DNA of 64,000 nucleotides, from contig BGKB01000045.1 in NCBI GenBank assembly GCA_003116975.1, positions 124,001 through 188,000 on the forward strand, read 5' to 3'. Under the pieces are notes generated by a model, which made no database searches, was not told the DNA's origin, and saw only the letters and a program-made list of their open reading frames with translations. The position numbers and the translations under genes were made by a program. Below, piece after piece: positions 2,553 through 40,530 of the stretch. Source of the DNA: Aurantiochytrium sp. KH105 (taxonomy: Eukaryota; Sar; Bigyra; Thraustochytrida; Thraustochytriidae). Each line of letters opens with the position of its first letter. Positions within the stretch are counted from its first letter, which is position 1.

Positions 2553-3947
2553 ATGCGGCTCGGCGGCAGCGGCGTCGCGCGCGCCGTCCTCGCGGGGGCG
2601 GCGCGGGCCCGCGTGCGCGCGCGCGCAGGCATGGGCGCGGCGCAGCCACCCGCGCTCGCGCGCGCGGGGCTCGGCGCGGCGGCGCGCGGGCCGGAGCCCG
2701 CGGCGCTGCGGCGCGCGGCTGGCGCGTGGGGGCCAGCGCGGCTGATGAGCGGCACCGCGGACGGCGGCGGCGGCGAGCAGAGCAAGAGCACGAGTCTGCA
2801 TACCGTGCAGGAGGTCTTCCGATCGGTGTCCAGCAAGGTCGAGGCCGTCCGCGTCAAGCTCGAGACACGCGGCGTGCGCGAAAAGGTGGCCGAGCTCGCC
2901 AAGGAGCTTGCGCGCGAGGATCTGTGGGACAATCCGGATCGCGCGGGTAAAATCAGCCGGGAACACGCCGCCCTCGCAGACATGATTGAATCGCTCGACG
3001 CCTTCACGACGGCCATGGACAATGCCGTCGAGATGGCCACCATGGCCGATGAGGAAGGTGAAACTCAGGTCATTGCGGACTGCCTCAGCGAGCTGGACCA
3101 GATCGAGACGCAGGTGAAACGCTTTCATCTCAATATGCTTCTTGACCATCCGGCCGATCGCCTCGGATGTATTATTGAGCTCGCCGCCGGAGCTGGCGGA
3201 ACCGAGTCCTGCGACTGGACGGAAATGCTTCTTGACATGTACAAGCGCTGGGGCGAGCAGTCCGGATATCAGTCAACGATTACAGACACTTCTCCTGGCA
3301 CTGAGGCTGGGCTGCGCTCGGCGGTCCTGCAAATTAGCGGACTCAACGCGTACGGCTGGGCCAAGGCCGAGACCGGCGTGCACCGCATGGTCCGCATCTC
3401 AGAGTATGACTCGAATGGCCGGCGTCAGACTTGCTTTGCGCAAGTCAATGTCATGCCTCTCATGGATGACGATGATGACAACTTTATTGAAATTGACCCC
3501 GCAGATTTGAAGATCGACACGTACCGGGCCTCGGGTGCTGGCGGGCAGCACGTCAACACCACCGAATCGGCTGTGCGCGTGACCCACTTGCCCACGGGCG
3601 TTATTGCTCAGTGCCAGGCTGAACGTTCGCAGCACCGCAACAAGGCCATGGCAATGTCAGTTCTGCGTTCGCGTCTTTTGGAACGCAAGCTTCAGGCGGA
3701 GCGAGATGCTCGACGGGAGCAGCGTAACTCACTTGGCGACAATTCCTGGGGCAATCAGATTCGTTCCTACGTGCTTCACCCCTACAAACTTGTCAAGGAC
3801 CACCGCACCAATCATGAGACGCCGCAGGCTCTTGCTGTGCTCAAAGGCGAGCCCGAATACCTCACGCCCTTCATGGAGTCTTATCTCGCGCAGACTGCTG
3901 CGGACGAAGATGCCGTTCAAGGCGGTGAGTCCACTTCTCCCGCATGA
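2553..3947 (+). CDS. prfB: Organellar peptide chain release factor 2 (RF2)
   Basis: 464 residues. The first ~65 are rich in Ala and Arg without acidic residues, as in a mitochondrial presequence. The rest is a full class I release factor: a helical N-terminal domain, then GAGGTESCDWTEMLLDMYKRW, then the catalytic GGQ at residues 330-332 in SGAGGQHVNTTESAVR, which triggers peptidyl-tRNA hydrolysis. HVNTTESAVR and CQAERSQHRNKAMAM match the RF2 branch rather than RF1. Oddity: the tripeptide that reads the stop codon, S-P-F in bacterial RF2, is S283-E284-Y285 here (RISEYDSNGRRQT). The first ATG of the frame is used because it gives a plausible presequence. The protein should act in the mitochondrion; a plastid cannot be excluded from the sequence alone. 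Confidence 0.93.
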   Translation: MRLGGSGVARAVLAGAARARVRARAGMGAAQPPALARAGLGAAARGPEPAALRRAAGAWGPARLMSGTADGGGGEQSKSTSLHTVQEVFRSVSSKVEAVRVKLETRGVREKVAELAKELAREDLWDNPDRAGKISREHAALADMIESLDAFTTAMDNAVEMATMADEEGETQVIADCLSELDQIETQVKRFHLNMLLDHPADRLGCIIELAAGAGGTESCDWTEMLLDMYKRWGEQSGYQSTITDTSPGTEAGLRSAVLQISGLNAYGWAKAETGVHRMVRISEYDSNGRRQTCFAQVNVMPLMDDDDDNFIEIDPADLKIDTYRASGAGGQHVNTTESAVRVTHLPTGVIAQCQAERSQHRNKAMAMSVLRSRLLERKLQAERDARREQRNSLGDNSWGNQIRSYVLHPYKLVKDHRTNHETPQALAVLKGEPEYLTPFMESYLAQTAADEDAVQGGESTSPA

Positions 3948-4387: not shown

Positions 4388-7300
4388 ATGGCGACGGAGG
4401 GGGAAGACACCGTGGCGTACTGGAAACAAGCCGCGCAGCAGCGGCAGGAGGAGCTCGATGAGTTCATGGAGTCGAGCCGAGAGCTTGAGGAGGCGCTTGA
4501 AAGCGAGCTGAGCGCAAGCGAAGAACGCCTGGCGGGCTTGCAGCGCGAGCTCGCGCAGCGCACCGACGAGCTCGAAAAGGCGCGCGCCAAAAGCGCCGAC
4601 GCGGGTCCTCGCATGCTCGCAGTCGAGGAAAAAAATCGCACGCTCCAGAGTGAACTTGCGGCCGCGGCGACCAAGTGTCGCACGCTCGAGACCAGCAATG
4701 ACGAGCTCGAGGGCAAACTGCGCATCCTTGAAGCATCTGTGGAGGACCTCAAGCACCAGGCTGAACAGCAGCTCGAGCAAAACGTTTTCGTTCAAGAAGA
4801 AAGGGACCAAGAAAAAGAATCGCAACAGCGCTTGCGCGATGAGCTCAACGAGGCTCGCTCCGAGCTCCTGGCCTTGCAAGGAGCCAAAGCTGATCAGAAC
4901 TCCAAAGATGCGCAAAAACTGCAAAAACAGGTAGAACAATTTGAGGCGCAGCTGTCTGAGGCGCAGGATCTTGTCTCTCGCTCCCAAGATGAAGTGGACT
5001 CGCTCAAGCAGCAGCTTGCCGACGCGCAAAAGGCTGCCGAGGATGCCCAACAAACCGCGGGACGAGGGTCTGAGAATAGCCAAAAAGAAATCGATTCTCT
5101 CACACAGCAGCTTACCGATGCGCAAAAGGCCGCTCAGGACGCTCAAAAGGCTGCCGGCCAAGAAGCTGAAACATTTCGAGAAGAGATTGCTTCTCTGAAA
5201 CAGCAGCTTGCCGATACGCAAAAGGCTGTCGCGGACGCCCAGGACTCTGCTGGCCAAGGCTCCGAAATGCACAAGAAAGAGATCGAATCTCTTACGCAGC
5301 AGCTTGTCGAGGCGCAAAAGGCCGTCCAGAATGCTCAAGAAGTTGCCGGCCAAGACGCTGAAACGACGAGCGAAGAGATTGCTTCTCTCAAGCAGCAGCT
5401 TGCCGACGCGCAAAAGGCTGTCGCAGACGTCCAGGACTCTGCTGGCCAAGGTTCTGCGGCAAGTCAGAGAGAGATTGATGAACTCAAGCAGCAGCTCGCG
5501 GATGCGCTAAAGTCCGCGCAAGAGGCTCAGGAGACTGCTGGCAAAGACGCCGAGGCATTCAAGGCAGAAATCGATACCCTCAAGCAGCAGCTTGGTGATG
5601 CACAGAATGCTGCTCAGGCCGCTCAAGACTCTGCCGGCCAAGGCTCTGCGGCAAGTCAAAGGGAAGTTGATGAACTCAAGCAGCAGCTTGCGGACGCGCA
5701 AAAGACCGTACAAGAGGCCCAAGAGGCTGCTGGCCACAACGCCGAGACATACAAAGCAGAGATTGACAGTCTCAAGCAGCAGCTTGGTGATGCGCAAAGT
5801 GCTGCGCTCGATGCCCAGAAAAAGAGCGAGAATGGATCCGTGGCTTACGACAAAGAATTGGAGCTGCTCAGGACGCAGCTTGCAGAAGCGCAGCAGACAG
5901 CGGAGTCTACGCGCGACGAAGCCGTCGAAGTCGTCAGGAAACAGCTCGTAGAGGCGCAAGAGGCCGCAGCAAGGGCCTCGCAGACGCAGGCAGACCAAGT
6001 GCAGACACTTGAAAAGCAGATCGCGACGCTACAGGACCAACTTGCCCAAGTCGAAGAGAAAGCGGAGGACTTGGCAAAATCTGCTGCTCTCGAGACCAAG
6101 GCGCGCGATCAGGAAGCGGAGACTCTCCGGCATCAGCTTGCTGATGCGGAACGAGCCGCTGAAGCTGCCATCGCTTCCGCTGGCGAGGGTAACAAAACTC
6201 GAGACGAAGAGGTCGCCTCACTCAAGAAGCAACTCGCCGAAATGGAAGTGGCTGCCGAAGAGCTGGCAACGTCTGCAGAGCAAGAGTCGAAGGCCCGTCA
6301 GGAAGAGGTGGACACGCTCACGCAAAAGCTCCAAGATGCCCATAAAAGGGCTGAAGAGGCTTCGAGACAGGAAACCGACGCGCGCGCTCAAGCCATTGCT
6401 TCCCTCGAGCATCAGCTTTCGGAGGCGCAGGACGCAGCGGAAACGGCTAGACTTGCAGCTGAGGAGAAGCTTCACGCCGCGCAAGCGGCTCATGAAAATG
6501 CACTTGCCAAGCTCGAAGAGGAAGTTGAACAGTTGCGTTCGGAGCGGAGCATTGCCGGGGACGCGGACAAAGAGCTGCAAGCAGAGCTGGAGGATGCTCT
6601 TGCGCAAACCGCAAAGCTCCGGGCGAGCAATGCTGACCTCGAGGTGGCGCTCGTGGAGGCGCAAGGAGCTGCCGAATCGAGCAAGGCGGAGGAAAAGGTG
6701 TTTGCAGCCGCGCTCGAAGAGGAACGTGGCATCGCCGAGCGCCAGGTACAACTGGTGCGCGACGAGCTTGCCGAGGTGCAGTCGAGTTTTGCAGAGGAAC
6801 GACAGGTGGTCCTAAACTTGCGCAAGCAGCTCGCTCAGGTTGGCGAGCAGCTCGAAGCGGAGCGGGAGGCACGCCGCTCGATGGCGACGGCGTCGTCATT
6901 GCCAACTAGCGTCGAGAGCTTGCGCACAGCCTACACTGCGCAGTTACGAACGAATGCGTCTTTGCTGTCGCGCATGCAAAAGATGCGCGGCAATATTCTT
7001 GTGTGCTGCCGTATTCGACCGGCTCTCCCGCATGAGGGTGCCATTGCTGAAGCCTCCCCCTGCGTGGCAGCGCTGAGCTCGGAAGAGGTTTCGTTTCAAA
7101 ATGACAAGACCAAAACGGTGCGGCCCTTTGCTTTCGATCGGGTCTTTGCACCGACCGCGACGCAAGCGCAGCTCAACAACGAAGTATCTGCGCTAGGGCT
7201 CGCCGAATCCGTCGTGGGTGGCACGAACGCCTGCATCATGGCCTACGGACAGACGGGCAGTGGCAAGACGTACACCATGGATGGTCCAGAGGACAACCCC

Positions 7301-8953
7301 GGCGTGAACGCGAGGGCTATCAAGCGCGTGTTCGAGTTGACGCAGATGCTCGAGAGCTCTGGGCAGTCCTCCTACAGGGTCCGTCTAGGCATGGTCGAAA
7401 TATACAACGACGAGGTCCGCGATCTCTTATCCTCTGGCGTCGCCGACGCGCAACTGCGCGCGGACGCCGCAAATGGCAGCTCGCGCACAATGGGCTCGAT
7501 GCACTCGCCAGTGCTGAGCAACGGTAATAGCGACGCTTTGGAGACGTCTTCTGTCGGGTCGGCAGCGACTTCTTTCACGCAGTCATCACGAGTTGGCGAC
7601 GCGGCGCGTAACCCGCGCCGCGCGCGTACCCTCGGCCTGCCCGACATGCACTGGGTCGCGTGCGAGAATGCTGATCGCGTCGATGAGGTTTTGTGTGTGG
7701 GTCGCGCCAACCGCGCGACGGCGGCAACAGATCTGAATGAGCACAGTTCGCGCTCGCATCTGATCATCATTCTCGAGGTCCAGGGATCATCCTCCGAGGA
7801 CATTTCGGTGAACATGACGGGCCGCTTGTACCTCGTGGACCTGGCCGGTTCGGAGCGAGTTTCAAAGTCCAAGGTCGAGGGATCACGTCTGGATGAAACC
7901 AAACATATTAACCGCTCACTTGCGGCACTGGGCGACGTTCTCGAGGCGCTCGATAGCAAGGATCGCAACCGACATGTGCCGTACCGCAACTCTAAGCTGA
8001 CGCACATGTTGCAGCCTGTTCTGGGTGGTAATTCGCGAACGATGATGATCTTGGCGGTGCCTCCTTCGCCAAGCAGCGCGCAGGAGACTCTCTTTTCGCT
8101 GCAATTTGCAGCTCGCGCACGCAACATTGAGCTGGGAGCGGCCAAACGACGCGTCCAGGTGAAGAGCACGATGGCCGAGATGCAAACGCTGCGTGCCCAG
8201 CTAGCGGAGACCAAGGCCGGTAAACAAAAGGCGGACGCCAAGATTGCTGATCTGAAACGCAAGCTGCACATTACGGAGCAGGCCATGTCGGCCATCAAGT
8301 CGGAAGGAACAAAAAAGGAGGATGCTTTGCGGAAGCGCACGGACCGCGAAACGCAGCATGTTGCCAAGGAGGTTGCTGACTTGCGGGCCAAGCTTAGTGC
8401 AACGCGAGAGTCGCTCAAGGAGGCCAAGGGCGAGGCTGAAGCGGAGCGCCGCAAGCTCAAGGTTGAGCACAAGTCTCTTGCACAAGCCAAGGCCACGGCA
8501 GAGCGCCGCGTGCTCGAGATGGAGGTGATGTTGGAGAAACAGCGCGCCGAACTCTTGCGTTTACGTGCTGCAGTCTCGGAGCGGGAAAACATTTCTCCAA
8601 AGGTGAACCGCTCACGTCGGCCGGCTCCTGGCGCTGGTGCGGTCGCCGGAGGACGTTCGCGCGCAACGTCAAATGCATCGACGGCCAGCGCCACAACGCC
8701 GGTTCGTGCGGCCAGCAGTAAGTCTCTTTCTCGGGTCCCGGCACCGCGCCACGAGCCGCCGAGCCCTCCATCAGCTTCTTCGGATGGGCCTGCAACAGGT
8801 ATTGAGGAAAGCGCAAGTGCAAGCAATGCCCATGGGTCGGGTGTCACGCGCGCAGCTGAGTTCACGAGCCGTATTGCAGCGCCGACGGCATCGTCATCGG
8901 CCCGATTTCGGTCAATGATTCCGAAACCTGGGCGTTCGACGTCGAGCAGATAG
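4388..8953 (+). CDS. Kinesin-14 family motor with long coiled-coil stalk
   Basis: 1,521 residues in one exon. Residues 1-860 are almost all predicted coiled coil, including nine 32-residue repeats at 204-491. The motor spans about 868-1250. The neck/motor junction reads MRGNILVCCRIRP, as in kinesin-14 motors. The P-loop GQTGSGKT is at 954-961. Switch I is NEHSSRSH and switch II is DLAGSER, followed by HINRSLAALGDVLEAL and PYRNSKLTHML. An insertion of about 65 low-complexity residues (about 1017-1081) follows DLLSSG in the motor. After the motor come ~150 residues of coiled coil and a Ser/Pro/Ala-rich basic tail ending in RFRSMIPKPGRS, an SxIP-like EB1-binding motif. Kinesin-14s move toward microtubule minus ends and act in spindles or transport. 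The 270-residue extension after the motor is longer than usual. Class assignment rests on the neck sequence and motor position. Confidence 0.92.
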   Translation: MATEGEDTVAYWKQAAQQRQEELDEFMESSRELEEALESELSASEERLAGLQRELAQRTDELEKARAKSADAGPRMLAVEEKNRTLQSELAAAATKCRTLETSNDELEGKLRILEASVEDLKHQAEQQLEQNVFVQEERDQEKESQQRLRDELNEARSELLALQGAKADQNSKDAQKLQKQVEQFEAQLSEAQDLVSRSQDEVDSLKQQLADAQKAAEDAQQTAGRGSENSQKEIDSLTQQLTDAQKAAQDAQKAAGQEAETFREEIASLKQQLADTQKAVADAQDSAGQGSEMHKKEIESLTQQLVEAQKAVQNAQEVAGQDAETTSEEIASLKQQLADAQKAVADVQDSAGQGSAASQREIDELKQQLADALKSAQEAQETAGKDAEAFKAEIDTLKQQLGDAQNAAQAAQDSAGQGSAASQREVDELKQQLADAQKTVQEAQEAAGHNAETYKAEIDSLKQQLGDAQSAALDAQKKSENGSVAYDKELELLRTQLAEAQQTAESTRDEAVEVVRKQLVEAQEAAARASQTQADQVQTLEKQIATLQDQLAQVEEKAEDLAKSAALETKARDQEAETLRHQLADAERAAEAAIASAGEGNKTRDEEVASLKKQLAEMEVAAEELATSAEQESKARQEEVDTLTQKLQDAHKRAEEASRQETDARAQAIASLEHQLSEAQDAAETARLAAEEKLHAAQAAHENALAKLEEEVEQLRSERSIAGDADKELQAELEDALAQTAKLRASNADLEVALVEAQGAAESSKAEEKVFAAALEEERGIAERQVQLVRDELAEVQSSFAEERQVVLNLRKQLAQVGEQLEAEREARRSMATASSLPTSVESLRTAYTAQLRTNASLLSRMQKMRGNILVCCRIRPALPHEGAIAEASPCVAALSSEEVSFQNDKTKTVRPFAFDRVFAPTATQAQLNNEVSALGLAESVVGGTNACIMAYGQTGSGKTYTMDGPEDNPGVNARAIKRVFELTQMLESSGQSSYRVRLGMVEIYNDEVRDLLSSGVADAQLRADAANGSSRTMGSMHSPVLSNGNSDALETSSVGSAATSFTQSSRVGDAARNPRRARTLGLPDMHWVACENADRVDEVLCVGRANRATAATDLNEHSSRSHLIIILEVQGSSSEDISVNMTGRLYLVDLAGSERVSKSKVEGSRLDETKHINRSLAALGDVLEALDSKDRNRHVPYRNSKLTHMLQPVLGGNSRTMMILAVPPSPSSAQETLFSLQFAARARNIELGAAKRRVQVKSTMAEMQTLRAQLAETKAGKQKADAKIADLKRKLHITEQAMSAIKSEGTKKEDALRKRTDRETQHVAKEVADLRAKLSATRESLKEAKGEAEAERRKLKVEHKSLAQAKATAERRVLEMEVMLEKQRAELLRLRAAVSERENISPKVNRSRRPAPGAGAVAGGRSRATSNASTASATTPVRAASSKSLSRVPAPRHEPPSPPSASSDGPATGIEESASASNAHGSGVTRAAEFTSRIAAPTASSSARFRSMIPKPGRSTSSR
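4997..5860 (+). repeat. Nine tandem 96-bp units encoding 32-residue coiled-coil repeats
   Basis: Within the kinesin stalk nine consecutive units of exactly 32 codons follow the pattern [D/E/A]-x-L-K-Q-Q-L-x-[D/E]-A-Q-[K/N]-x-[A/V], then A-Q-x-x-A-G, ending in E-[I/V/L]. Unit starts are at residues 204, 236, 268, 300, 332, 364, 396, 428 and 460. A partial tenth unit follows. Units differ mainly at the Gly-flanked linker, which alternates between forms such as GQGS and GQDA. Confidence 0.95.
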
Positions 8954-27917: not shown

Positions 27918-30900
27918 ACAACGATAGACTTTTTGCAGTGCTGCCCTGAGCTTGTCAGGAAGCTCTTTGGCATAGTCATCCGAGTAAAAACTGCAATTGA
28001 TCGCAACCTTGTTCTCGAGATGCATCGGATGTGGCTCGCCTCGTCAGTGCAAAAGGTAGTTGACTCAGTTAACGCCTCGCACATTCGTTTCTTTGAAGAT
28101 CTCGAGCATACTTACCTGCTGTCATACATGGATGGCGGCAATCCTCTGCAAGGTGACTGGAAGCGTGATTACTGTACCGTCCCGGAGCATTTCGATTCTC
28201 AGCACAAGATCAATATGCAATTAGGGATCGAACAACCCAGCCCAAAGGTATTGAGTCTTGAGAGGACTGCAGAATCATTGCACGAATGGAAAATCGAAAA
28301 CATTAATTGGAAGAACTTTGGTGATTGTGCAAAGAAGAAGCTCGCCAATGAGAATCTGATTTACCTTCGTGACCTTCGAGTATACGAACGTGATCTTAAA
28401 GATGAGGACATTATCAAAAACATACTGAAGAATCGTTGGAGCAAGAAGACCAGACATGATCGCATAAGGCTTCTCAGAGATAATCTGCAGAGAAAGATAG
28501 CAATGGTACACGACCTCTGGGACGCCTTCAGCATGAAGGGATGCGGGGAAGTTCTTAGTCCGGAACGCGTCGAGGAGATCCTCCGACAGAAATCATTGCG
28601 CGAAGCTTCTAATAAGCGAAAGTGGAAGGAACGTGGAAGAGAAAGCTCCGGAGAGGGATGCTTCGACGATCGAAGGAGCAAGGTCCTCAAGCGTGAGCCC
28701 CCAAGGCCATTTGGGGCCTTTGATGACCCGAAGGGATTCAACGGTTATCTTCTGGGGCGCGGTCTGGTTGAATCGATCATGTTTGAACAGCAGCGCGAAA
28801 CTGCGCGACCGGTGGTTCGCGAGATTGTGTCTGTGCAGGCAAACGTGCTCCGTCTTGACTGCACCTTCAAGTACACGAAGCGAGCTCGCGTGACGCTAAA
28901 AGATGGAGAGCAAACAACAACCTTTCAGCCTTTTGGTGCGCTGCTCACGGTGTTGAACGAGCACAACCAAGTTGCTTATGTGCGCGCTTTGCGTGACGGC
29001 GAAAGGATGGTCGAGGTGATGGAAGCTCTTGACGATTTTCGCCAACATCGTGTTTTCATGGATGGCAAGGACTATCAGCCAAAATGTATATGGACCGACA
29101 ACTGCTGCAAGCAAAGAAATGACCTTCAGAGTCTCTGGCCTGGTGTGAGAGTCTATGTTGACGCCTTCCATTGGCTCAAGCGCTGGGATACCGTTCTGCT
29201 TCCAAGGCCTGGGCATCCTTTACGTAGACTATTTTCGCAAGCAATGGCCGATGCTGTCTTTGCACCAGACTTGAGTCGTGTCGCGAACTTTACATCCAAA
29301 CAAGGCGATATAATGCATCGCTCAAATCGGGCAAAGCGAAGGGTGCCTCGGGCCATACCGAGAAGGGAAATACTGCAGAAGCGTGTTGCTTTGGTGCTCG
29401 AGTGCTTTCTCCGCCTCGACGCTAAGTCAAATCTTACTAATGAGCTCTGTGATCTTTCGCGAAGCACGGGAGTTCCCCTCGTAAATGCCGATGACGCGAG
29501 GGATCTTCCCAAGGATGCATTTCCTGGGATCGACTTCCCTGGCCCTGCTCAGCTTGAGCAGGCAGCCATATCAAAGGGCAAGTCTCAGCGCTTATTCAAG
29601 AAAAAGACCTTCCAGGGAAAGAGCTTCGCTCATTTCGTGAAGACAATGTTTACACACATCCACAATGGCTGCTTGGCTGATCCCGAGGATATGCCGTTGC
29701 ACACTGAGTTGGAGAACGGGGACATCTCAACTTCGCGAGGAACAGGCGCAAATGAAAGGTTCCATCGGGCCCTGAATGAGCGAATTGGTGCAGCGCCTGT
29801 TGGGCTGCTTCGGGCTGACGCACTTTTGCTTGCTGCAACACTTGACCATAATCGTCGCCGTGCTGCTCGGGCGTTTCCGAATCATAAACGAAATCCTTTG
29901 ATTGACCGTTTTTTCTCGCGCACGCACAGACTCCGCATGAACAGCCTGTTCACCTCCAACGCATTCAGAAGCGATGAGCTTCCGTATCCCGATGCAGCCT
30001 TGCCGGGGGTTTTACATCCGAGTCTCGCAATTGGCTTTGCAATTCTTCCACCGTGGATCGACCCAGATGGACGACGGAACTTCGCACGCGGGGAAGCAGC
30101 CTTGACAGCTCCAACAATCAGCTCTGTTGAAGATGGTCAGGATCTTGATTTAAGCCTGTGCACCAAGGTTCATGCTGTGATTCTCGCGTATGGTTTGCAT
30201 GATCACCAGCATCCCGACTTCCAGTTGAAGGAACTCTTCGAAAAACTCACAGGGCGCGACCGGTGTCCGCTCGCGCGACCCTCACAGATCAAGGGTAATA
30301 TTGGCGCAAGAATGGCCGCAGACCTTGTTCGTCGAAAAGGACATGAAGCATTGCTCGAGATGCTTCGTAAAATCGGCGTCGTAGAAAAACGAGACGTGGA
30401 ACTTCACGTCTTGACCATCGATCGCCTTGGCGCAGAAATTCAGCATCACTTAGAAAGTGCTCCCTACTCGGGTCCTCGAAAGCAAAGCGGTAAATTTCAG
30501 CTTCACATCGCTTCCGTGCCTTTGTCATCTGCCCCGCGGCCAGCAACGTTGAAAAGCTCCCTGCCCTCGGGACCTCCTATTGTACTTTCATCCACAAGGT
30601 CATTACTTCTATCATCGCCTGCGGAAGAAGTTGACAAGTACTTCAAAGCGATCCCTAACGTTTCTTTGGCAGCGCCGAATGTCAAAGGATCCACGACTTT
30701 GGAGGGAGAAGCATTGGAGCCATGCAAGACACCAGTTCCTAATGTCTGGGTTGCCATCGCAGATACTCTCGGTGGCCAACTACTGATGGATCGCACCGAG
30801 GCTGATGATCGGGACGCGTGGGCCAACATCGATCTTCATTCGAGTCCTGCAATCCAGAGCATACCTCGGGGACAGGACACTATTGACGAAATTCCATTTT

Positions 30901-32756
30901 CTTGGACTGGGGGGAAAGAGCTCGACGAAATGGAGAAGAAGCTTTTCGGGAAACTCCTCATGGAGCACTATCAAGACTGGCCTTCTCTCGCCGATGTTTT
31001 CAACAAGACTGAAAGATTGGCACAGATTTGGAATGCGTTGGTCGGCGGGCGCGCCATGCAGATCGCTGAGATTGCTAAGCTGATTGGGCCCGATTCAAAA
31101 ATGCTCGAGCTCGCAGCTCAACTTCGGCCCAAGACTTCAACGCACTTCAAAGAGTTTCTAAAGTGGTTCACGAAGATTCGGGAAACGCCACAAAGCGACC
31201 GTCGTGCTGTAAATGAGCTTCGGCAACAGCAACATCATAAGGCGAACAAGAGAAACCTCGACGCGACTCGTATCAGCGAGAGCCTCGACGTAGCGGCGTG
31301 TGAAGTGGCCTTAGAAATTCTTCGCGCGACAGGGATGACAGAGGAAGTAATCGAGGATATAACAGGCAAAAGCTTGAGTCTAGGGAAGCTTGACAAGGCT
31401 AAAGCAGCCAGTTCGAGCACAACAACGATGCGATTGCTGCGTGCGCCGCTTGAGACTCACCATGAAGGCGTAGCTTCATTGCCAATAACGCCTGCACAAA
31501 CGGAACCAGGACATTCTTTTCCCAATCAACCTTGGCGTTGCGTGGAACAACTTGACCCAAAACGGTATTGCAGCGTTTGTCGTCAAAGGCGGAAAGACGG
31601 GGGGCATCGTGCAGGTGAGGAATGTAACAGAGACCTAAAGGTCTGGAAACAATCAGAACTCCTCAAATTGACTCGAGTGGACTTCAAGAAAGCGCCCCCA
31701 GCACGAGTTTTTACCCCGCTTTGCAGCCTCAAAAGCAGCGACGAAGAAGTCCTTCATTGCTATTTTAGTGCCTTGGATGACTTTGTAACGAGCGGGCGAG
31801 CGCAGTTCGAATTTGTCCACAGGAACTACCCAAGTGGGCGGCGCCTCAACGATGGACTGATACGCCAAGAAGCCACTATCAGAGGGCTTCAGCAGCTTCG
31901 AGATAAGACCGGTTGGCTGACCTCATTCGTTATGAAGGTTTTTGTTGAAATCCTTCGCGATCACAACTTTAGTAAAGCTCCTTCGTGTGGTCGATGCGCA
32001 TTTGTGTGTACAGATACCTGTACCATGGATGCTAACTTTCGCGATGAGGTTGCCAATGCTTTGAAAGCATCTCAAAGTAACGCACGCTGGCAGAGAATCA
32101 AAAAGCATGAGCCTGGCGTACCCGGAAACCTAAACTTTTTGTTTATGCCAATCTGTCACGGCTCTCATTGGACGTTGGTGTATCTCGATGTGAAGCAGCG
32201 CAGCCTCAATTATTTTGATCCGATGAAAGGCGCCCAGCAACGAAGTGAAGTGATCGAATTGCACTTGAGAGGTTTAGTTGATGCCTTAGGTATTGGGCAG
32301 CATTTTAGGACCCTCCCACAACCTCCGAACGAAGAGCAAGGATCAAAAGTAGTGGCTGTAATTGACTTGAATGAGACGGCAGGTGAGACCGAGCTTGCAA
32401 AGGTTAATGACGCGTTTTCTAAGGCTGGCCAGGGTAGTCGCCGTAGTCGTCGCGGCAGGCGCAGAACAAAGTGCCCAAAGAAGAAGGCCCCGGCTACGTC
32501 CGATTTATTTGCGACAGATGGGTGGACAGGACCAGCCAATTATTATGGCGCTCAACCTCTCGACAACACATTTGATTGCGGAATTCATGTCATGATGACG
32601 ATGGCCGGGCTAGTTGCTGGCCTCAGTATGGATGAAATCAACAGGGCGTTGCAACCGGAACCAGGGCACAATGCGATCCCACAGAAGCGTTTGGCTGTGC
32701 AGATTGGTCTCGCTGAGCTCTTTTTTGATAGCTTTCATCACCAATCTTCCCTCTGA
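27918..32756 (+). CDS. Transposase fused to Ulp1-type (C48) cysteine protease, 5' end in gap
   Basis: About 1,612 codons are open from the gap to a stop at 32754-32756. The transposase core shows an RNase H-fold order: first Asp in VLRLDCTFKYTKRAR (28857), second Asp in IWTDNCCKQRND (29097), a D-x2-H motif (YVDAFHWLKRW), and a Glu in GTGANERFHRALNE (29754). This is the pattern of MULE-like cut-and-paste transposases. Farther on, YCSVCRQRRKDGGHRAGEEC gives a CCHC zinc-binding motif. The C-terminus is a Ulp1-like protease with His (SHWTLVYLD, 32166), Asp (NYFDP, 32217), Gln (AQPLDN, 32553) and Cys (FDCGIH, 32577) in the right order. A basic insertion (RRSRRGRRRTKCPKKK) lies between Asp and Gln. 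Base use is lower in GC than in neighbouring genes. The coding part seen is uninterrupted. Confidence 0.8.
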   Translation, partial: TTIDFLQCCPELVRKLFGIVIRVKTAIDRNLVLEMHRMWLASSVQKVVDSVNASHIRFFEDLEHTYLLSYMDGGNPLQGDWKRDYCTVPEHFDSQHKINMQLGIEQPSPKVLSLERTAESLHEWKIENINWKNFGDCAKKKLANENLIYLRDLRVYERDLKDEDIIKNILKNRWSKKTRHDRIRLLRDNLQRKIAMVHDLWDAFSMKGCGEVLSPERVEEILRQKSLREASNKRKWKERGRESSGEGCFDDRRSKVLKREPPRPFGAFDDPKGFNGYLLGRGLVESIMFEQQRETARPVVREIVSVQANVLRLDCTFKYTKRARVTLKDGEQTTTFQPFGALLTVLNEHNQVAYVRALRDGERMVEVMEALDDFRQHRVFMDGKDYQPKCIWTDNCCKQRNDLQSLWPGVRVYVDAFHWLKRWDTVLLPRPGHPLRRLFSQAMADAVFAPDLSRVANFTSKQGDIMHRSNRAKRRVPRAIPRREILQKRVALVLECFLRLDAKSNLTNELCDLSRSTGVPLVNADDARDLPKDAFPGIDFPGPAQLEQAAISKGKSQRLFKKKTFQGKSFAHFVKTMFTHIHNGCLADPEDMPLHTELENGDISTSRGTGANERFHRALNERIGAAPVGLLRADALLLAATLDHNRRRAARAFPNHKRNPLIDRFFSRTHRLRMNSLFTSNAFRSDELPYPDAALPGVLHPSLAIGFAILPPWIDPDGRRNFARGEAALTAPTISSVEDGQDLDLSLCTKVHAVILAYGLHDHQHPDFQLKELFEKLTGRDRCPLARPSQIKGNIGARMAADLVRRKGHEALLEMLRKIGVVEKRDVELHVLTIDRLGAEIQHHLESAPYSGPRKQSGKFQLHIASVPLSSAPRPATLKSSLPSGPPIVLSSTRSLLLSSPAEEVDKYFKAIPNVSLAAPNVKGSTTLEGEALEPCKTPVPNVWVAIADTLGGQLLMDRTEADDRDAWANIDLHSSPAIQSIPRGQDTIDEIPFSWTGGKELDEMEKKLFGKLLMEHYQDWPSLADVFNKTERLAQIWNALVGGRAMQIAEIAKLIGPDSKMLELAAQLRPKTSTHFKEFLKWFTKIRETPQSDRRAVNELRQQQHHKANKRNLDATRISESLDVAACEVALEILRATGMTEEVIEDITGKSLSLGKLDKAKAASSSTTTMRLLRAPLETHHEGVASLPITPAQTEPGHSFPNQPWRCVEQLDPKRYCSVCRQRRKDGGHRAGEECNRDLKVWKQSELLKLTRVDFKKAPPARVFTPLCSLKSSDEEVLHCYFSALDDFVTSGRAQFEFVHRNYPSGRRLNDGLIRQEATIRGLQQLRDKTGWLTSFVMKVFVEILRDHNFSKAPSCGRCAFVCTDTCTMDANFRDEVANALKASQSNARWQRIKKHEPGVPGNLNFLFMPICHGSHWTLVYLDVKQRSLNYFDPMKGAQQRSEVIELHLRGLVDALGIGQHFRTLPQPPNEEQGSKVVAVIDLNETAGETELAKVNDAFSKAGQGSRRSRRGRRRTKCPKKKAPATSDLFATDGWTGPANYYGAQPLDNTFDCGIHVMMTMAGLVAGLSMDEINRALQPEPGHNAIPQKRLAVQIGLAELFFDSFHHQSSL

Positions 32757-39309: not shown

Positions 39310-40530
39310 ATGGGTGGCGGACCTTCAAGCTTGCCCAAGATTGAGGCGCCAGAGGTTGCCGCGGAGCAGAAGGCGACGCTTCGCACGCCGCCAAATGCGG
39401 TCGTGATTGGCCTCACGGGCGGTATCGCTTCGGGAAAATCGACAGTGTGCCAAGTCCTTGAGCAGCAAGGTGGGGCCATTGTCCTGAACGCAGACCACTT
39501 TGGGCACGAGGCGTACAAGCCCGGAACGGCGTGCCAAGCCGAGCTCGTGGCGCACTTTGGGGAGCAGATCATCAATAAAGAAGATGGCACGGTGGACCGC
39601 AAGACGCTCGGAGGTTTGGTCTTTGCAGATCCCAAGGAGCGCGAGGCCCTGAACGCAATTGTTTGGCCTGCGATTCGCGATCTTTTGCGCCAGCGCGTGT
39701 TCGAAATTACCAACGAGAACCCAGCTGACCGCACGGCCAAGTTGATTGTAATTGAAGCAGCCATCCTCATCGAAGCGAACTGGATGGATCTGATTGACGA
39801 GCTGTGGGTGGTCACGACTAACGTGGACACAGCCAAGTCGCGACTCATGGCGCGCAATAGCATGAGCGAAGAGGATGCAATGAAGCGGATCAACTCGCAA
39901 ATTTCCAACGAAGAGCGACGGGCAGTGGCGCACGTAGATGTCCCCAATGAGGGTGATGAGTCAGCACTCAAAGACGCTGTCGTCGCGGAGCTGGAAAAGC
40001 TCCACGCTCGCTACTCGCGGCTCTCCGCTTTTGAAATGGTCGATGTGGTCGATAAGGAGGACCAAGTCCAGACAACGGCCAAACGGGCCGTAGTTCGGGC
40101 CTTCAACCTGATTTCCAGATGCTCTTACATTGTTCTGGTCCAGCAAACTTCGGGCAAGATCTTTGTCCAACGACGATCAGATCTGAAAGATTCTGGCCCT
40201 GGTCTCTTAGATCCTGCACCAGGCGGAGTTCTTGGCGCAGGCGAGTCGTACTTGCTCAATGCGCAGCGGGAGATGGCCGAGGAGATGGGTCTTCCCGGGT
40301 TGTCGCTCGAGCATGTCTCTGCCCTATGGTATGAGGATGGAAAGGAGAGATCTTGGGGCACCATCTTTTGCGCAAAGGTTGACGTCGATGTTTCTTCGCT
40401 CACGTTGCAGCCTTCGGAGGTGTCTAGCGTCAAACTCATGTCTCCAGAAGAGATTCTCACTGCAGATCCATCGCAGTTCCTTCCCGGTGGACTCGCTGCA
40501 TTCAAGCTGTGGTCCTCCAAACAACAGTAA
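39310..40530 (+). CDS. Dephospho-CoA kinase fused to a Nudix hydrolase
   Basis: 406 residues. Residues ~30-235 form a CoaE-type kinase: Walker A GGIASGKS (37-44), then LNADHFGHEAYKPGTACQ with the conserved D and the substrate loop, and IVIEAAILIEANWMDLIDELWVV followed by RNSMSEEDAMKRI in the lid. It would phosphorylate dephospho-CoA at the 3' OH, the last step of CoA synthesis. The C-terminal half (CSYIVLVQQTSGKIFVQRRS onward) is a Nudix domain with a perfect Nudix box from G306 to L328 (E312, R320, E321, E324, E325, G327). The N-terminus MGGGPSSL fits an N-myristoylation signal. The ATG is in a good context (aaaaaccATGg). The Nudix substrate is unknown; CoA-type or IDI/YfcD-like activity is possible. 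Confidence 0.9.
   Translation: MGGGPSSLPKIEAPEVAAEQKATLRTPPNAVVIGLTGGIASGKSTVCQVLEQQGGAIVLNADHFGHEAYKPGTACQAELVAHFGEQIINKEDGTVDRKTLGGLVFADPKEREALNAIVWPAIRDLLRQRVFEITNENPADRTAKLIVIEAAILIEANWMDLIDELWVVTTNVDTAKSRLMARNSMSEEDAMKRINSQISNEERRAVAHVDVPNEGDESALKDAVVAELEKLHARYSRLSAFEMVDVVDKEDQVQTTAKRAVVRAFNLISRCSYIVLVQQTSGKIFVQRRSDLKDSGPGLLDPAPGGVLGAGESYLLNAQREMAEEMGLPGLSLEHVSALWYEDGKERSWGTIFCAKVDVDVSSLTLQPSEVSSVKLMSPEEILTADPSQFLPGGLAAFKLWSSKQQ

Follow-up and report, generated by a model that had tools for sequence, protein, structure and literature searches.

A putative organellar release factor gene and its domains

Near the start of the window, by which we mean the whole 64,000-nucleotide stretch that was analysed, lies a nuclear gene for a putative organellar release factor 2 (RF2), whose features are collected in Table 1. 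The open reading frame (ORF) scored 432.4 bits against the TIGR00020 prfB profile, above the cut-off of 370; with the RF1 model NF001859 it reached 262 bits, short of the cut-off of 400. Its best matches among solved structures were bacterial RF2 chains. A second indication of RF2 descent came from the presence of both the GGQ motif and the tryptophan of the RF2-type switch loop, which corresponds to the Trp319 described for E. coli RF2 (PMC5378476). Thus, the assignment to RF2, which the initial annotation had made from the residues flanking GGQ, agrees with the profile scores. The homology covers positions 3-352 of the 353 in the profile and begins only at residue 91 of the protein. The Arg-rich N-terminus resembles a mitochondrial presequence, suggesting that the protein is probably imported into mitochondria.

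Table 1. Release factor gene of the window: positions of the gene and of features in its product (residue numbers are those of the encoded protein)
Feature	Window positions	Strand	Remarks
Organellar RF2 (mtRF2a on the best explanation), nuclear gene	2553..3947	+	464 aa, single uninterrupted ORF; TIGR00020, PCRF and RF-1 domains
Probable mitochondrial presequence, residues 1-66	2553..2750	+	11 Arg/Lys against 1 Asp/Glu
GGTE, residues 215-218, helix tip meeting the first stop-codon base	3195..3206	+	Unchanged; bacterial conservation
Asp228	3234..3236	+	Arg in 159/159 bacterial RF2s
Ser283-Glu284-Tyr285 (SEY) replacing SP(F/Y)	3399..3407	+	Thermus 193-195, E. coli 205-207
Gln292 replacing the usual His	3426..3428	+	Thermus 202; bacterial alignment
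Cys294 replacing Ser	3432..3434	+	Thermus 204; alignment to solved chains and bacterial alignment
GGQ, residues 330-332, catalytic motif, intact	3540..3548	+	GGQ in 80/80 of the first aligned bacterial set
Trp399, switch-loop Trp that RF1 lacks	3747..3749	+	E. coli Trp319; alignment to solved RF2s

Two other ORFs on the forward strand of the window were recorded. The next large ORF after the release factor (positions 4388-8953) encodes 1521 residues with a kinesin motor at residues 875-1247, and a single ORF at positions 39310-40530 fuses a dephospho-CoA kinase (CoaE) domain and a NUDIX domain.

Identity with RF-H (prfH) was also considered, as the RF-H tripeptide is SXY (PMC1586002), which SEY fits. 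RF-H differs in being without domain 1, in a three-residue loop deletion and in having GP in place of GG (PMC1586002). None of these traits is present here: the protein is a full-length RF2 that has no gap in the loop and keeps GG, and its score of 122 bits against the RF-H model falls below the cut-off of 166.65. We therefore rejected this identity.

Changes in the stop-reading head

Codons 283-285 read TCA GAG TAT, confirming the Ser-Glu-Tyr that the initial annotation had placed there. SEY aligned without gaps with residues 205-207 of 1gqe (E. coli RF2) and with residues 193-195 of the full-length chains 2ihr_1 and 4v4s_AY, both of which we take to be Thermus thermophilus RF2. Thermus numbering, as in these two chains, is obtained in this region by subtracting 90 from the numbers of our protein, and the reading head becomes S193-E194-Y195, Q202, T203 and C204. 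The corresponding tripeptide of E. coli RF2 is SPF (PMC5378476). Because SEY stands in place of the canonical SP(F/Y), we regard the protein as an RF2 by descent and do not class it as a canonical UAA/UGA factor.

For comparison, we used 170 bacterial RF2 loci, which reduced to 159 distinct sequences. Eighty of these loci were the best 80 of 123 confirmed relatives on genome contigs, all bacterial by title and chosen as nearest to this RF2; the other 90 came from three phylum samples (40, 31 and 31 genomes), with 30 loci taken per sample. A homologue search of viral contigs returned no relative. In two bacterial genomes of the samples (G061 and G087) no RF2 match exceeded the family cut-off, and these may be incomplete assemblies or real losses.

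The protein shares with bacterial RF2s (TIGR00020) its homology, GGQ, helix tip and switch-loop Trp, and differs from them in the tripeptide, which is SP(F/Y) in all 159. At the helix tip, the residues of GGTE are conserved in 159, 159, 155 and 156 of the 159 sequences, respectively. The GG motif is reported to contact codon position 1 (PMC1586002), and by our own reading the GG of that report is the GG of GGTE here. Within the tripeptide, position 283 is Ser in every bacterial sequence, as it is here, and position 284 is Pro in every one (159/159 each); position 285 is Phe in 139 and Tyr in 20, which makes the Tyr ordinary. Since the Ser is invariant and Tyr is common among bacterial RF2s, the exchange of SPF for SEY, as the initial annotation described it, comes down to a single unusual replacement, that of Pro by Glu. 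A codon of the form CCN requires at least two base changes to become GAG, and Glu is carried by both copies of the gene in the genome, so that a sequencing error is unlikely at this position.

Two further changes in the head had been overlooked by the initial annotation. One is the His to Gln change at position 292, where the bacterial sequences have His (147), Gln (9) or Met (3), and the other is the Ser to Cys change at position 294, where they have Ser (157), Ala (1) or Thr (1). When we considered the 54 columns that are at least 97% invariant in bacteria, the protein departed from the consensus at only four of them, R228D, L279M, P284E and S294C. We set R228D aside as a feature related to the code: the RF1 of the same genome is likewise without that Arg, having FTMY where E. 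coli RF1 has FRMY, and Asp228 is possibly a trait of mitochondrial factors and not of the code.

The mitochondrial code and the release factors of the genome

The initial annotation had suggested that UUA would be a mitochondrial stop codon in this organism if it were a thraustochytrid, and the genome's own mitochondrial contig does use UUA in this way. The cox1 gene lies on contig C366 (30,955 bases), on which we listed 33 protein ORFs, each cut at the first TAA, TAG, TGA or TTA. The first stop was TTA in 13 of them and TAA in 20; TAG and TGA ended none. The ORFs that end at TTA are nad5, rps11, atp9, rps7, nad6, cob, nad9, nad1, nad11, cox1, cox2, an unnamed ORF and nad2. The names rps11, rps7, nad9, nad2 and rps19 were assigned by us from sequence, and the start of cox1 is uncertain. 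A 34th ORF, which is tatC-like and ends at TAA beside an assembly duplication, was left out of the 33. The tatC-like region (C366 positions 29600-30955) is partly duplicated near the end of the contig, probably as an assembly overlap of a circular map.

The count of zero internal TTA codons arises by construction, and the real evidence is the completeness of the ORFs that were cut in this way. Thirty of the 33 ORFs were scanned, and 26 of these matched a Pfam family at an E value of 0.001 or better, with rpl6 below Pfam's own cut-off. The large respiratory genes covered their profiles almost completely, as for COX1 (1-436 of 436), NADHdh (2-297 of 298) and COX3 (1-257 of 258). Among the 26 matched ORFs, the first stop was TTA in 8 and TAA in 18. 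There are 305 TTG codons, and three two-fold boxes give an A/G ratio near 3; on this rough basis, about 900 TTA codons would be expected. In 6 of the 13 genes that end at TTA, the next in-frame TAA, TAG or TGA lies at least 5 codons beyond the TTA; in the other 7 it follows 1-4 codons on, which alone would allow a last leucine or two.

ARAGORN found 21 tRNA genes on C366, the same count whether the contig was supplied in pieces or joined. The tRNA-Leu genes have only the anticodons CAA and UAG, and tRNA-Trp has only CCA; no tRNA-Leu(UAA) gene was found in the readable part of the contig. Genes for tRNA-Arg and tRNA-Thr were likewise absent from the 21 found in the readable part, and these tRNAs are probably imported, or else encoded outside that part. 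Because these are missing as well and tRNAs may be imported, we treat the absence of tRNA-Leu(UAA) as supporting evidence only.

The mitochondria use UUA as a stop codon and not for leucine, which amounts to NCBI table 23 in practice. UGA appears to be unused in the listed mitochondrial ORFs. The mitochondrial genome of the thraustochytrid Schizochytrium sp. TIO1101 is reported to have 31,494 bp, 33 protein genes and 21 tRNAs, with a nad5 of 1968 bp and TAA, TGA or TTA as stops (PMC7799850). C366 is alike in size and gene set and equal in tRNA count and in the length of nad5 (656 codons, or 1968 bases without the stop), which suggests that the organism is a thraustochytrid or a near relative of that group.

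We searched the genome (76 Mb, 367 contigs) exon by exon for RF-1 domains and scored the best candidates, a procedure that might overlook an additional gene broken into many exons. The matches comprised two near-identical copies of the RF2, two of an RF1 and two of a GGQ protein whose sequence we read as ICT1-like. A second organellar RF2 with the canonical SPF, which the initial annotation had named as a finding that would speak against its proposal, was absent from the RF-1-domain matches across the genome. The two RF2 copies, on contigs C45 and C23, are 96% identical and look like two haplotypes. Outside the presequence, they differ at 19 silent and 4 amino-acid-changing codons among 382, and none of the 4 lies in the reading head. 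This excess of silent differences indicates that the RF2 is under constraint. The RF1 carries VQRVPST and HTS, which constitute an ordinary reader.

Given a code in which UUA is a stop, a single RF2 (in two copies) and an ordinary RF1, the RF2 most likely reads UUA. With UGA unused, it would be dispensable unless it did so, and mtRF2a is indeed absent from chlorophytes (PMC6821328 section 11). In such a division of labor, RF1, with its normal reader, would serve UAA, and RF2 would owe its retention to the reading of UUA; probably it reads UAA as well.

Two other explanations were weighed against this one. In the first, the disuse of UGA relaxed the constraint on RF2, which now reads UAA only, or little at all, while UUA, for want of a tRNA that reads it, is served by the ICT1-like protein or by the release of stalled ribosomes. 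UGA ends none of the 33 ORFs, so that its reading may be unneeded, and the genome has two copies of the ICT1-like GGQ protein. However, the ratio of silent to changing codons between the RF2 copies shows constraint outside the presequence, and both the GGQ motif and the helix tip have been kept. Furthermore, with a normal RF1 acting on UAA, a relaxed RF2 could have been lost, as is reported for chlorophytes (PMC6821328), and UUA is the stop codon of as many as 13 of 33 ORFs, including cox1, cob and nad5. We consider relaxation improbable.

The second explanation assigns the reading of UUA to RF1 instead of RF2. It has a counterpart in green algae with UCA or UUR stops, where an altered mtRF1a has been proposed to read these codons (PMC6821328, PMC12574857). 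The green-algal case resembles the present one in that a sense-to-stop change is matched by a change in a reading head, and differs in that the factor is of the RF1 lineage and other positions are altered (PMC6821328, PMC12574857). In contrast to those factors, the RF1 found here keeps every discriminating residue that could be placed (the Gln and Arg before PST, the Thr of PxT, and HTS). Without any departure in RF1 there is nothing to explain a new specificity, and we give this explanation very little credence.

The Ser204 model and the proposed reading of UUA

The literature already connects RF2 with UUA (PMC12574857), so that the idea itself is not new, and there it is tied to a residue outside SEY. 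In labyrinthulean mtRF2a, the invariant Ser204 is replaced by Ala, Gly or Cys, and the proposal that this change leads to UUA reading is attributed to Zihala et al. 2020, Mol Phylogenet Evol 152:106908 (PMC12574857). Cys294 of our protein corresponds to residue 204 of 2ihr_1 and 4v4s_AY. The equation of Cys294 with the published Ser204 depends on the numbering that was used. In the chain numbering of 9fy1_8, number 204 would fall on the Ser of SPF, a residue that our protein retains. We consider it more likely that Thermus RF2 numbering is meant, since our protein has lost just one of the invariant Ser residues of the head, and that one to Cys; Thermus numbering is stated for RF1 by the same group (PMC6821328). 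The initial annotation had called a remodelled loop the obvious candidate for reading UUA. The head is indeed remodelled, but SEY is not the obvious candidate, as its Tyr is ordinary, its Ser is kept and the literature points to Ser204 (Cys294).

The protein shares with labyrinthulean mtRF2a its RF2 descent and probable organellar setting, its occurrence in a UUA-stop lineage and the replacement of Ser204, in this case by Cys (PMC12574857), and the mitochondria of the same genome use UUA as a stop. Thus, the best explanation of the sequence is that it encodes the mtRF2a of a thraustochytrid-like labyrinthulean. It differs in the changes of Pro194 to Glu and His202 to Gln, which go unmentioned in the passages of PMC12574857 that deal with these factors. 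The plastid RF2 (pRF2) of peDinoflagellates also has Cys or Ala at the same site in an organelle with UUA stops; it differs in being a plastid factor, in that UCA is a stop as well, and in having additional changes and a two-residue deletion that is absent here (PMC12574857).

In a narrower form of the explanation we favor, the published model would have the Ser204 change (Cys294) suffice for UUA reading, and SEY would be incidental. The model gains from the report that the same site changed independently in labyrinthulean mitochondria and in UUA-stop peDinoflagellate plastids (PMC12574857), and Cys294, at Thermus position 204, has one of the three residues reported there. It is challenged by bacteria that have Ala204. 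A bacterial RF2 (L179) with RRQTAF, that is, Ala204 and Gln202, was found on a contig that looks chimeric. This contig (C34 of genome G085; 48% GC) opens with very GC-rich genes, including this second RF2, and looks chimeric or contaminated; the other RF2 of G085 (L186) has RRHTSF. When L179 was used as the query in the phylum of G103, a metagenome-assembled genome with a deltaproteobacterial title whose phylum is probably Myxococcota, 171 of 195 genomes matched at 1e-100. The best 30 loci, a set biased toward the query, had RRQTAF (24), RRHTAF (1) or RRQTSF (5), and hence Ala204 in 25 and Gln202 in 29. With Gln in 29 of 30 loci of this biased set and in 9 of the 159 bacterial RF2s, we rejected the change of His202 to Gln as the sole cause of UUA reading.

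Three genomes with Ala204 were examined, and all have TTA inside genes. In G198 (RRQTAF), a tRNA-Leu(UAA) is present, and the 400 kb sampled contained 13 in-frame TTA among 111,158 codons, one of them inside a P450 domain. In-frame TTA occurred 14 times in 106,252 codons of G169 (RRQTAF) and 28 times in 30,060 codons of G269 (RRHTAF), where one lies between two domains of a pyruvate dehydrogenase E1. One genome with Ser204, G266, had 13 in 102,291 codons. TTA is rare in G198, G169 and G266 because these genomes are GC-rich. The bacterial gene calls were simple ORFs filtered by base composition, in which a TTA near the start of an ORF may precede the true start. Of ten TTA-bearing ORFs compared with Pfam, three matched no family, and in several the TTA fell outside the matched domain; the argument is therefore carried by the P450 and pyruvate dehydrogenase E1 cases, together with the tRNA. 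Since three Ala204 genomes keep TTA in genes, one of them with a tRNA-Leu(UAA), replacing Ser204 by Ala is not enough to turn UUA into a stop codon, also when Gln202 is present. It could be that Ala204 gives a weak reading of UUA that is outcompeted by leucine tRNA in bacteria, a competitor whose gene was not found in the readable part of the mitochondrial contig here.

We also asked whether Ser204 to Ala is tied to avoidance of UUA. The ratios of TTA to TTG and of CTA to CTG were 0.017 and 0.012 in G198, 0.016 and 0.012 in G169, and 0.039 and 0.044 in G266; beside this one Ser204 genome, neither G198 nor G169 gave any sign of avoidance. In G269 (Ala204, His202), the respective ratios were 0.061 and 0.319, an approximately five-fold scarcity of TTA. 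It is possible that this pattern represents mild avoidance of UUA, which would favor the published model, or something else. No bacterial RF2 among those compared has Cys at Thermus position 204, and the bacterial test thus covers Ala and not Cys. On balance, we regard the Ser204 change acting alone as a doubtful explanation.

In contrast to these two positions, Glu194 was without precedent both in the 159 bacterial RF2s and in the 30 further loci from the phylum of G103. Since Gln202 has bacterial precedents, the replacements reported at 204 have them only as Ala, and Glu194 has none, Glu194 appears to be the head change most specific to this protein in comparison with bacterial RF2s. It is a reasonable candidate for a role in the recognition of U as the second base; alternatively, SEY may be confined to this species and have nothing to do with the code.

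Our preferred explanation, to which we assign a probability of roughly 0.7, is that RF2 reads UUA by means of the altered head, irrespective of how much each residue contributes. We presume that the helix tip reads the first base of the stop codon and the Thr reads the third. As both are unchanged, the RF2 should still expect U first and A last. At the second position, Glu in place of Pro beside the Ser that reads this base, together with Cys204 and Gln202, would permit U to be accepted, and the specificity would shift from U-A/G-A to U-A/U-A. Such a shift fits the observation that the changes crowd around the reader of base 2 and leave the readers of bases 1 and 3 unchanged. The Ser of SPF, there numbered 206, is described as critical for accepting A and G at base 2 (PMC6821328 section 11). 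We think that the combination of head changes, rather than one residue, is responsible. Against the preferred explanation, two of the three head positions vary in bacteria (Ala204, Gln202) without a change of code.

A more detailed version, which we consider unlikely as it stands, is a purine-to-pyrimidine switch in which the RF2 of this lineage abandoned UGA in favor of UUA. Glu194 would occupy the room freed by the smaller second base and accept a hydrogen bond from N3-H of uracil, while Cys204 and Gln202 would loosen the strand behind it. The Glu194 carboxylate could also accept a hydrogen bond from N6-H of adenine in UAA.

The reading of stop codons by proteins, and the gain of new ones, is known mostly from bacterial release factors and mutants. 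The present factor offers a natural case, in which three head changes occur alongside a normal RF1 and the code can be checked on the mitochondrial contig of the same genome. The change of Ser204 to Ala, which has been put forward as probably responsible for UUA reading in two organelle lineages, turns out to be common in part of a bacterial phylum. The Ala204 bacteria examined keep UUA as a sense codon and so provide a natural control, which makes the published model directly testable. The bacterial comparison also suggests a second site, the Glu of SEY. If the proposed contact between Glu194 and uracil is true, SEY would count as a new peptide 'anticodon', with the site to which UUA reading is now ascribed reduced to a helper.
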